From assembly GCA_013823245.1 (NCBI GenBank), contig PNLU01000022.1, forward strand, positions 1 to 37,560: a stretch of DNA of 37,560 nt, read 5' to 3'. The position numbers and the translations under genes were made by a program. Below the pieces are notes generated by a model. The model was not told where the DNA came from. It was given only the letters and a program-made list of their open reading frames with translations, and made no database searches. Below, piece after piece: positions 956 to 4,212 of the stretch; positions within the stretch are counted from its first letter, which is position 1; each line of letters begins with the position of its first letter. This DNA is from Alcanivorax sp. GTDB lineage: Bacteria > Pseudomonadota > Gammaproteobacteria > Pseudomonadales > Alcanivoracaceae.

Positions 956-2179
956 ATGACGAAGAATCCGGACAAGGGCTATGTCGCACTGCTGGGCTGG
1001 AGCCTGAACGCGGTTGAAGCTGCCGCATCCTTTGATCGTCGCTACGTGGTAGTGGCCCCTGACTGGGCTGAAGACTACTGTCGCGAGCACGATATCCCCT
1101 ACGTACCCTGGAATTTCGAGCGACTCAACGATCGCTCCATGGAAATCGCCCAGACGCTGGCCGATATGGGGGTCGATGTCGCCATTCCGCTGTTCGAGGA
1201 AACGGTGGAATGGGCGGGTGCGATCAACTCGGTATTGCTGGATAACCCGCGTCTGCTCGGTCAGGCCATGCTGATGCGGGACAAGTCGCTGATGAAGCGC
1301 CGGGCGCAACTGGGTGGTATCCGTGTAGGTATTTTTGAAGAGGCTCATGATCGTGATGATGTGATGCGTTTTCTCAAGCGCGTCAATCAGACCCTGCTGA
1401 AACTGGATGGCGATCCCAATGACCCGATTCATTTCAAGGCGTTCGACAAGGCTGGATGCCTGGGGCATCGGGTCATCCGCACGCCGGATGACGTGGATGC
1501 CATTCCCGATGAGGAGTTTCCGTCGTTGATGGAGTCGCATCTGGATGGCTGGGAGTTTGCCGTCGAAGCCTGGATTCATCAGGGCAAGATCCGGTTTCTG
1601 AATATTTCCGAGTACGTATCACTCGGTTATTCGGTATTTGTACCGGCATCACCCGAGCTGGAGCGCTACCGGCCCCAGATTACCGAGCAGATTGAAAAAC
1701 TGGTTAAAACCTTCGATATCGAGTTCGGCTTCATCCATCCGGAATACTTCGTGACCAGCGACAGCGAGATGTATTTCGGTGAAGTGGCCTATCGTCCGCC
1801 GGGCTTCAAGGTGTTCGAGTTGCTGGAGCGAGTCTATGGCTTCAATGCCTATCAGGCGCTGATTCTGTCGTTCGATCCGAAGACCACCGAAGAGGAAATC
1901 CAGGCGTTCTTCCCGAAAGAAGTCGAGGATGCGCAAGGTTATGCGGGCTGTTTTGGTGTCTATCCCCGGCGCCGGGTGGTCAGCCGCCTGGAAATTCCCG
2001 AGGAAACCGAAGATCACCCGTACTTTGAATCGCATGAGCTGACCGCCCCGTTGCAGGAAACGGTCACCAAGCGTACCGCCTTCGGCACCCACTGGGGGCT
2101 GGTCTATTTTCGCGGTGATGAGGCCGACACACTCAAGGCGTTGCTGGCCCATCAGGAGACGCTCGATTTCTATATGTGA
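956..2179 (+). CDS. ATP-grasp domain ligase of unknown substrate
   Basis: This 407-residue protein has the ATP-grasp layout. There is a Rossmann-like N-terminal region of about 100 residues, then MRDKSLMKRR (107-116) as in ATP-grasp lid subdomains. A phosphate-binding loop reads FKAFDKAGCLG (around 160-170), followed by a dGxEfxVEaw strand. The metal and adenine-site block is IHPEYF then GEVAYRPPG (E276 to R280). Such enzymes activate a carboxylate as acyl-phosphate and join it to an amine or thiol. The usual Asn two residues after the metal-binding Glu is Ala278 here. The stop overlaps the GTG of the next gene by 4 bp (GTGA), so the two are almost certainly co-translated. Substrate cannot be told from sequence. 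Family call is firm and the biological role unknown. Confidence 0.85.
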   Translation: MTKNPDKGYVALLGWSLNAVEAAASFDRRYVVVAPDWAEDYCREHDIPYVPWNFERLNDRSMEIAQTLADMGVDVAIPLFEETVEWAGAINSVLLDNPRLLGQAMLMRDKSLMKRRAQLGGIRVGIFEEAHDRDDVMRFLKRVNQTLLKLDGDPNDPIHFKAFDKAGCLGHRVIRTPDDVDAIPDEEFPSLMESHLDGWEFAVEAWIHQGKIRFLNISEYVSLGYSVFVPASPELERYRPQITEQIEKLVKTFDIEFGFIHPEYFVTSDSEMYFGEVAYRPPGFKVFELLERVYGFNAYQALILSFDPKTTEEEIQAFFPKEVEDAQGYAGCFGVYPRRRVVSRLEIPEETEDHPYFESHELTAPLQETVTKRTAFGTHWGLVYFRGDEADTLKALLAHQETLDFYM

Positions 2180-4212
2180 CAGCGCCTGTTAAGGTGAATC
2201 CTGTGACTGATCCGGATGATGTTGCCGTGACACAGAAACTTGCTTTGCGGGTCGAGCGTTTTGATGAGGCGCTGGCCGCCATGGCGCGGGCCCCGGCCTT
2301 TGCTCGACCGGGCAAGATGCCGCCGCTGCTGGACGCCGCCCGCCTGGTGTTGCAGGAAGAAAGTGGCTGTGCCGCGATGGCATCGCGGGCGCAGGCCATC
2401 GAAGAAGCGGGTGTCTTCGCCGGTTCCGACTGGGCGACGCCGCAGATACTGGTGCCCTCGCTCAGTCGCGGGGCCCTGCGCAGCGCCGATGCCGGGCTGG
2501 TGGTGATTGAGTCGCTCAGTCAGTTGCGCTTGCTGGCCATTGCTCAGAGCTGGTTCCTGCATCCGCTGATGTCTTCTGAACAGGCACATCATTACCTGAC
2601 CCAGGTGCTGGCGCTGAATCTGGAGCTGCTGTTTGCCGCGCCCGGTGAAGCAGAGCGCGCCGTGCAGGGGCGTCTGGCCAGAGTGCCACGTAACCTGTTC
2701 GCTTATCTTGCTGAAACCATCGGTTACGAGCATGTCATTGATCAGCTGATTGATGAGATCTGGCGCGTTCTCAAGCAACGCCCGATCCAGGTGGACAGCG
2801 TCAAGGACATGATCACCCAGATTGCGGTGTGCCGCGCCCGGCGTGACATTCACTGGGGTGGGGCGGGCCAGGGCGCCGATCGGCTGGTCAGCAGCCTGTA
2901 CGGACCGACCCAGGCCACCCGCGAAGATCCGGGCCTGGAGGAATACCAGCGCCGCCTGGACCGGATGGATGCCCCCGCGCTGCAATACGAGGCCTCTGGC
3001 TTTGCCCGCGCCATGCATGATACCGGGCTGGTGTCGCCCTATCATGCGGTGATACTGCGTCACCTGCTGGGGCAGGGCGATCATCTGCTGGTGGAGTGTC
3101 TGGGGCTGTCGTCCACGGGGCGCGATTGCCTGTTGTGTTACAGCGATCTGGTACATGCCCTGATCGAGTCTGCGGTATTCCCCGGTACAGCGCAGGCGGT
3201 GTACGGGCTTGCGTTGATGCTGGAGCGCGGCATTCTCTACCAGCCTCCCATTGCTCCGGCACTGTGGCGGCAGCTTGGCCTGTCGCTGTGTGTGTCGGCG
3301 GCAGAGCGTCTGCAGCATCGCACTGACACTGCCATTACCCCCGAGGCCCGGCTGCTGGAGGGCGTGCTGTGCATGATGGGCCTGCCGCTGGGAATCGGGC
3401 AGGGCAACAATCCCACGTGCCAGTCGGCCCGGGCCCTGTCGATGTGGGCGTTCAATGACCCGGATTACCTGCTGCAGATGGTGGCCTGGGCCGCCCGCGA
3501 TGACGAGATCGTCATGCATTTCGAGGGGCAGGCAATTTCCTCCCGCGAGAGCGCGGGCGGTGTCGCGACCGAGATGCCCGTGGATCTGGATCCGGTGTCC
3601 CTGCTGGTGGTGCCGCATCTTGACCGGATCTACGCCGAAATGGGGCGTCGTTGCGTCGGTCGTGACGGTGATCCGCATCGCTGGGTCAATCCGGAGTTCC
3701 ACGGTTGGTGGTCCGGGCGGGGCTTTCATATCAATGTGGATGTGGCCACCGGACTGTTGCACGAGCTGGAGGATTTCCTGCGCCACTTCTATGCCGCCTA
3801 TCACCCGATGTACAACGGCAATCAGCCGCTGATTCATCCCCAGCCGGCGGGCATCGCGGTGACCGACAGCGCTGCGCGGTTCATCGGTTGGCACGCCATC
3901 ACGATACTGCGTGTATCACTGGACCCGTCCGGCATGATGCGGGTGTATTTCTACAACCCGAACAACGACAGCGGTCAGGACTGGGGAGACGGCCTGGTGG
4001 TCAGCACTTCGGGCTGCGGTGAGCAGTTCGGCGAGGCGTCCCTGCCGTTCGAGCAGTTCGCGTCGCGCCTGTACATCTTTCACTACGATCTGCTCGAATA
4101 CGGCGAACCGGCCCAGGTGTCCCAGGAAGAACTGGACCGGGTGATGGGCTATGTTCATCGTAGTTGGGGGCGCGAGCGCCTGGCCGCTGGCGGGCTGCAG
4201 GCGGAAGGCTGA
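2176..4212 (+). CDS. Large protein with papain-like cysteine peptidase/transferase C-terminal half
   Basis: I know no named family for this 678-residue protein. Residues 1-400 look mostly helical and soluble, with no signal peptide. The C-terminal half carries GQGNNPTCQSARALSMW. Gln409 and Cys415 are six residues apart, exactly as Gln19 and Cys25 of papain. At 571-577 comes GWHAITI, like the papain His-Ala-Val strand, and at 592-598 YNPNNDSGQDWG, like the papain Asn-Ser-Trp turn. The order Gln, Cys, His, Asn fits a thiol peptidase, transglutaminase or acyltransferase. That assignment is inference from motif order and spacing. The GTG start overlaps the ATP-grasp stop, which suggests a ligase plus thiol-enzyme pair. 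The reading ends just before the tesB promoter. Confidence 0.75.
   Translation: MTAPVKVNPVTDPDDVAVTQKLALRVERFDEALAAMARAPAFARPGKMPPLLDAARLVLQEESGCAAMASRAQAIEEAGVFAGSDWATPQILVPSLSRGALRSADAGLVVIESLSQLRLLAIAQSWFLHPLMSSEQAHHYLTQVLALNLELLFAAPGEAERAVQGRLARVPRNLFAYLAETIGYEHVIDQLIDEIWRVLKQRPIQVDSVKDMITQIAVCRARRDIHWGGAGQGADRLVSSLYGPTQATREDPGLEEYQRRLDRMDAPALQYEASGFARAMHDTGLVSPYHAVILRHLLGQGDHLLVECLGLSSTGRDCLLCYSDLVHALIESAVFPGTAQAVYGLALMLERGILYQPPIAPALWRQLGLSLCVSAAERLQHRTDTAITPEARLLEGVLCMMGLPLGIGQGNNPTCQSARALSMWAFNDPDYLLQMVAWAARDDEIVMHFEGQAISSRESAGGVATEMPVDLDPVSLLVVPHLDRIYAEMGRRCVGRDGDPHRWVNPEFHGWWSGRGFHINVDVATGLLHELEDFLRHFYAAYHPMYNGNQPLIHPQPAGIAVTDSAARFIGWHAITILRVSLDPSGMMRVYFYNPNNDSGQDWGDGLVVSTSGCGEQFGEASLPFEQFASRLYIFHYDLLEYGEPAQVSQEELDRVMGYVHRSWGRERLAAGGLQAEG

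Follow-up and report, generated by a model that had tools for sequence, protein, structure and literature searches.

GspS has the ATP-grasp fold, BtrJ of the butirosin system is likewise an ATP-grasp protein, and transglutaminases belong to the papain-like group. Wider amidoligase operons with ATP-grasp and transglutaminase genes were reportedly described by Iyer et al. in 2009. GspSA of E. coli contains a synthetase making a polyamine amide, fused to a CHAP amidase (PMC6272389). In glutathionylspermidine and trypanothione synthetase-amidases, a cysteine amidase cleaves the polyamine amide (PMC6272389, PMC10318531). Butirosin BtrH is described as a papain-like acyltransferase (PMC10318531) and the Rlo operon as an ATP-grasp gene beside a transglutaminase-type domain, RloB being an inactive membrane transglutaminase (PMC12239564). 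Here a gene pair, termed A and B, is described from a 37,560-nucleotide stretch of Alcanivorax sp. (contig PNLU01000022.1, assembly GCA_013823245.1), which is called the window. We propose that A and B are two enzymes of one amide pathway and that B is a cysteine enzyme acting on the amide made by A; the probability of this reading is estimated to be about 0.5.

GspSA and trypanothione synthetase-amidase offer the nearest working likeness to A/B, namely a synthetase and a cysteine amidase acting on the same amide. The two activities are fused there, whereas A and B are two genes. The CHAP and GSP-synthetase Pfam models were matched by none of 24 diverse B members, which are relatives 40–83% identical to the B of the window, and by none of 16 A members. 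A/B match neither GspSA domain and thus resemble a split GspSA by likeness and not by membership. The preliminary description of this DNA had named butirosin BtrJ/BtrH. The likeness is the pairing of an ATP-grasp enzyme with a papain-like acyltransferase; membership is not supported, with BtrH_N (PF14399) matched by none of the 24 B members. The Rlo and wider amidoligase operons are similar in placing an ATP-grasp gene beside a transglutaminase-type partner of the papain-like group. The difference is that the candidate residues of B are intact and B shows no transglutaminase match (Transglut_core, PF01841, in none of the 24) or catalytic pairing, whereas RloB is inactive. No paper describing the A/B pair was found in the open-licence literature, which is not proof of absence.

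Conserved pairing of genes A and B

Genes A and B form a real, consistently paired two-gene system. In each of three draws, the genomes with a strong match to A were also those with a strong match to B, at 19 of 57 relatives, 8 of 274 genomes from the class and 8 of 299 from the phylum, where the draws share genomes (G000 in all three, G008 and G054 in two). A single holder, G341, does not belong to the class. The counts omit weak A matches of at most 75 bits, which were judged to be other ATP-grasp proteins (G038 among the relatives; G125, G129, G157, G170, G239, G271 and a second place in G324 in the class draw; G492, G607 and eight g320 genomes in the phylum draw). A weak B match in G355 (L118, 20 bits) was spurious and was left out. 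In-frame stops in some B matches are natural C-terminal stops. Within a genus the pair can be patchy, as it is present in four of seven g1 genomes. The named B records (80 of at least 505 relatives) are mostly Halomonadaceae, with two Alcanivorax, and we take the recorded holders to be marine or salt-loving.

Among 120 B loci, A is upstream on the same strand in 98, divergent in 8, convergent in 2 and absent within the stretch in 12; not all of these loci are independent (L003/L025 and L004/L026 are the same genome twice). The 12 loci without A nearby are L111, four Halomonas loci, six paralogues in genus g27 (G054, G452, G488) and the second B of G226. L111 was scored in this way because its stretch ends early; L131 shows A behind a histone deacetylase (HDAC)-type gene. 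Where A is missing beside this B in Halomonas (four genomes), a second-type A, 75–76% identical, is always present elsewhere in the genome. In three of them (L307–L309) a B of its own immediately precedes it, in the order B then A on one strand, and in the fourth (L310) it stands alone within 16 kb, near genes that by eye may resemble glycine betaine catabolism. In the tree, the B proteins that accompany second-type A form two subgroups, L128/L236 and L307–L309/L136. In genus g27, second-type A and B are divergent (L128, L136, L236), the order in the window being A then B. Genome G054 of the same genus has B at six places, one a fragment, and two copies of A.

A mirror-tree comparison of A and B gave r of 0.684 over 35 loci, while the highest of 2000 permutations was 0.414. 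The two trees, read without support values, have most deep groups in common. The co-occurrence that the preliminary description had proposed to test was borne out in the three draws. The pair is retained despite changed gene order and orientation, which speaks for a functional bond between A and B.

Both open reading frames first reported for the window were confirmed, and they have the letters GTGA in common. This overlap had been taken as the basis for coupling, and it is dropped here as evidence: of the 98 loci in which A lies upstream of B on one strand, just 10 have an open frame of B that extends back across the stop of A. It is the adjacency that is conserved. The coupling is real on these other grounds. 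On sequence grounds GTG 2203 is the likelier start of B, because AAGGTGA precedes it and no ribosome-binding sequence is evident before GTG 2176. The GTGA overlap is probably not a real junction. Promoter-like sites (3, against 1.3 with a standard deviation (SD) of 1.0 in shuffles) and terminator-like sites (5, against 2.8 with an SD of 1.5) were not used as evidence. The features are collected in Table 1.

Table 1. Features of the A/B locus, in window coordinates.
Feature	Position	Strand	Basis
Ribosome-binding-like AGGAGG 5' of gene A	944..949	+	Sequence
Gene A, predicted ATP-grasp amide ligase, 407 aa	956..2179	+	PF13535, PDB profile matches, relatives
Gene B, no named family; 678 aa (GTG 2176) or 669 aa (GTG 2203)	2176..4212	+	
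Ribosome-binding-like AAGGTGA 5' of GTG 2203 (gene B)	2191..2197	+	Sequence; inferred
B N-terminal part, residues ~16–381, predicted all helical, perhaps alpha-solenoid	2221..3318	+	AlphaFold model
B C-terminal part, residues 382–678, candidate papain-like domain	3319..4209	+	Invariant residues
Q409, candidate oxyanion-hole Gln	3400..3402	+	Invariant 117/117
C415, candidate nucleophile near predicted helix start	3418..3420	+	Only invariant Cys of 10
H573, candidate catalytic His on predicted strand	3892..3894	+	Invariant 117/117
N594, candidate third residue, just past next predicted strand	3955..3957	+	Invariant 117/117

Candidate active sites of the two proteins

Judged by its sequence, gene A is an ATP-grasp ligase, dedicated and slowly changing, in agreement with its first assignment. 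The ATP-grasp_4 model (PF13535) gave 22 bits against the A of the window, below the cut-off of 27, and was matched by all 16 A members of the diverse alignment at E up to 0.1 (best E 1.6e-6). With an E limit of 0.01, a profile of A retrieved two structures from the PDB, 4wd3 (E 6e-4) and 3vot (E 1.4e-3), and both are L-amino acid ligases. The alignment covers about 120 positions at the end of the ATP-grasp domain, where GEVAYRPPG of A lies against GEIAMRIGG of 4wd3. Conserved acids and an arginine serve metal and ATP binding in the ATP-grasp family. The candidates by alignment, E263, E276 and R280, are invariant in 16 of 16 members and lie in the region aligned with 4wd3. Compared with the L-amino acid ligases (BL00235, 3vot; 4wd3), A shares the ATP-grasp region and the E-x-A-x-R end motif of 4wd3; it differs in being remote (21–22 bits) and in forming a separate, very conserved family. 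Its identity to the 15 aligned relatives is 73–92%.

Gene B lies outside named families, as had been stated. Pfam, PHROGs and PADLOC gave no match to it with an E-value of 1 or less, and its one NCBIfam match (E 0.01) and its PDB sequence matches are at chance level. Pfam searches of the 24 diverse members returned scattered matches only (best E 0.011, each in at most three members), and calpain (PF00648, C2) and papain (PF00112, C1) were matched by none of them.

The residues singled out in the preliminary description are present: Q409 and C415 six apart, H573 in GWHAI, and N594-P-N-N597. The motif around the cysteine is GQG-x4-C and not GQG-x3-C as written there. Conservation was read from sequences that passed limits on score and length, 117 different ones for B and 102 for A. 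Q409, G410, C415, H573, N594, P595, N596 and D598 are invariant in all 117 B relatives and N597 is kept in 115, as the proposed check on Q409, C415, H573 and the Asn-rich turn had called for. Among the ten cysteines of B, C415 is the sole invariant one. H501, H543, H636, D483 and D499 are also invariant, and the choice of a triad thus rests on order, spacing and context, and not on conservation alone.

A papain-like fold of B is considered likely from these residues and from profile and model comparisons. In the papain-like core as described in PMC10318531, the cysteine is at a helix N-terminus and the histidine and a polar residue are on successive strands. The predicted secondary structure around C415, H573 and N594 agrees with the core so described, in models with a low predicted local distance difference test (pLDDT). 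C415 is near the start of a predicted helix, 413–424 in the full-length model or 413–427 in the C-terminal model, both of low confidence there. In both models H573 is on strand 569–582 and N594 directly follows strand 587–593, again at low pLDDT. The best local profile alignments put H573 on the papain-type His, Q409 and C415 on the calpain Gln and Cys, and H573 on the C39-type His. Catalytic residues were thus paired in three of four profile comparisons, with scores within the null. At least two of the three coincidences of register (papain, calpain and C39_2, transglutaminase excluded) arose in 3 of 200 column shuffles. The templates comprised 1 calpain sequence (L216), 3 papain sequences (L238–L240), 30 of C39_2 and 30 of transglutaminase; L217 (calpain, contains stops) and L241 and L242 (papain, short matches) were omitted.

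AlphaFold gave a mean pLDDT of 61.9 for full-length B from a 52-sequence alignment. For the C-terminal part alone it was 47.6 from an 80-sequence alignment (79 of 80 loci and the window, L099 left out). The N-terminal half was modelled better, with ten-residue means mostly 61–94 and weaker ones (44–58) at 91–100 and 191–250; its best VIA Z was 7.2, which is not significant. The poor models of the catalytic half are probably due to close input relatives (70–83% identical for full length, 76–89% for the C-terminal part).

A proposed amide pathway and its gene neighbourhood

One and the same amide is probably formed by the pair and then broken down or transferred by it. ATP-grasp ligases as a family proceed through an acyl phosphate. 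A would use ATP to activate a carboxylate in this way and would join the acyl group to an amine. C415 of B may then attack the product of A, or a similar amide, with the assistance of H573 and N594, while Q409 would supply the oxyanion hole. B would hydrolyse the amide or hand the acyl group on, acting as an amidase or a transferase, and its helical N-terminal half may recognise the substrate or a partner. We infer the papain-like fold, the chemistry and the direction of the two reactions.

The neighbourhood has a theme of amide ligases with amide hydrolases, plus amine uptake. Neighbouring genes were picked by a longest-open-reading-frame heuristic, which antisense frames in G+C-rich DNA confuse. 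At L131:2327-3559, a Hist_deacetyl gene (PF00850, 302.7 bits) sits between B and A, and the nearest PDB chains of its product are HDAC6. The same subfamily adjoins B in L012, L013, L016, L109 and L018, and a member lies about 3 kb from the lone A in L237. At the level of at least 326 bits (next best 214) it occurs in 7 of the 57 relatives, and all seven are A/B-positive (hypergeometric 1.9e-4, not corrected for relatedness).

Two B paralogues lie behind uptake genes. In G488 (L134:5283-11458), relatives of PotF, PotG, PotH and PotI are followed on the same strand by a B paralogue, which starts about 195 bases past the last potI codon. In G452 (L135:1941-7867), PotF and PotI relatives were identified, the 2 kb between them not, and again a B paralogue follows on the same strand. 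Its start, TTG 5918, is 3 bases past the potI stop, with AGGAG at 5906–5910. The Pot names were taken from the top-scoring NCBIfam models, whose equivalog cut-offs were not reached; PotG passes the polyamine-transporter subfamily cut-off.

A conjugate of a polyamine or a similar amine is offered as a guess for the substrate, and a doubtful one; it draws on few loci, namely those with the neighbouring HDAC-type amidohydrolase and those where a B paralogue follows the genes for putrescine uptake. The earlier suggestion that the pair adds and removes, or transfers, an amide-linked group gains some contextual support from the same two neighbours.

A wider interpretation is tentative and, on balance, improbable. 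In halophilic and marine Gammaproteobacteria, A/B might form a cycle not described before and of independent origin, in which a conjugate of an amine, such as an amide of a polyamine, is made and then broken or transferred. A dedicated ATP-grasp ligase would be tied to B, a new papain-like family with its own helical substrate domain, joined sometimes by a zinc HDAC-type amidohydrolase, and there would be at least two parallel pair types of opposite gene order. If this holds, two enzymes that are widespread and very conserved among marine and halophilic bacteria, the second of them lacking a model in the family libraries that were searched, produce a metabolite or modification for which no name was found. 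The papain-like enzymes would also gain a new family, and there would be a second, separate-gene route to glutathionylspermidine-type amide conjugates.

Counter-evidence and alternative explanations

Several results weigh against an amide pathway with B as its papain-like cysteine enzyme. The catalytic part of B is mostly below pLDDT 50 in both AlphaFold models, and no PDB fold match was obtained for B at E up to 0.001. Scores from hhalign of B against papain, calpain, C39_2 and transglutaminase are all at background, and homology to papain-like families is thus not established by score. The transglutaminase alignment (columns 98–150) omits C415 and H573 and gives no catalytic pairing. As to context, 12 of the 19 A/B-positive relatives, the genome of the window included, are without the HDAC subfamily. 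The pot link comes from two loci within a single genus, and the rest of the 118 larger loci contain no relatives of PotF or PotI. B paralogues without adjacent A exist in genus g27 and G226, which means that B can act apart from a neighbouring A. Among the matches listed, Foldseek and VIA show no papain-like chain, and this is not counted against the fold. The earlier description of a papain-like partner stands for the order, spacing and invariance of Gln, Cys, His and Asn, while its structural side has low-confidence models and no significant fold match.

That B is not papain-like is unlikely but the strongest of the alternatives. In that case C415 would have a different function, be it in an unrelated fold, in a metal site together with H501, H543 and D499, or as a structural residue, and the two enzymes would catalyse successive biosynthetic steps without hydrolysis. 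The unproven fold, the background profile scores and the many further invariant polar residues count for it. Against it speak the Gln-Cys-His-Asn order, the six-residue Gln-Cys spacing, the single invariant cysteine and the register in three of four comparisons.

Modification of a protein or peptide is rather less probable. A would add an amino acid or peptide tag, and the helical half of B would bind the protein so that B removes or transfers the tag. The all-helical N-terminal part, whose repeat-protein-like structural neighbours are not significant, would fit such a role, as would a distant ATP-grasp and S15/CocE hydrolase pair near B in three loci. In contrast, the rough gene picking used showed no gene next to A/B in different lineages that could encode a target, and a small molecule is suggested by the transporter and HDAC genes nearby.

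A role in osmoadaptation, with A/B serving halophiles in the synthesis or recycling of a compatible solute of amide type, is very unlikely. The Halomonadaceae among the named records fit this idea, as do BCCT transporters in 3 of the 118 larger loci (L225:10739-12787, L230:2878-4938, L235:3526-5145), beside A/B or a lone second-type A, and mechanosensitive channels in 56 of the 118. The channel signal, however, is mostly one shared Halomonadaceae synteny block.

An anti-phage defence module is scarcely credible, for the patchy presence within genus g1 is outweighed by the lack of a PADLOC match, the lack of B relatives in phages or viral contigs, and the very high conservation of A. Phage or plasmid cargo was likewise rejected, with no phage match and no viral contig; one 1.8-Mb Halomonas record is filed as a plasmid.

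Two further gene combinations were observed near B. At L127:1286-4629, L307:1-2219 and L308:13855-16001, a distant ATP-grasp gene adjoins an S15/CocE-type hydrolase gene. This is possibly another ligase/hydrolase pair, near B without or with second-type A. At L123:9320-11838 and L133:7347-9865, a GCS2-type ligase gene overlaps a weakly AstE/AspA-like gene (below cut-off) beside a B paralogue.

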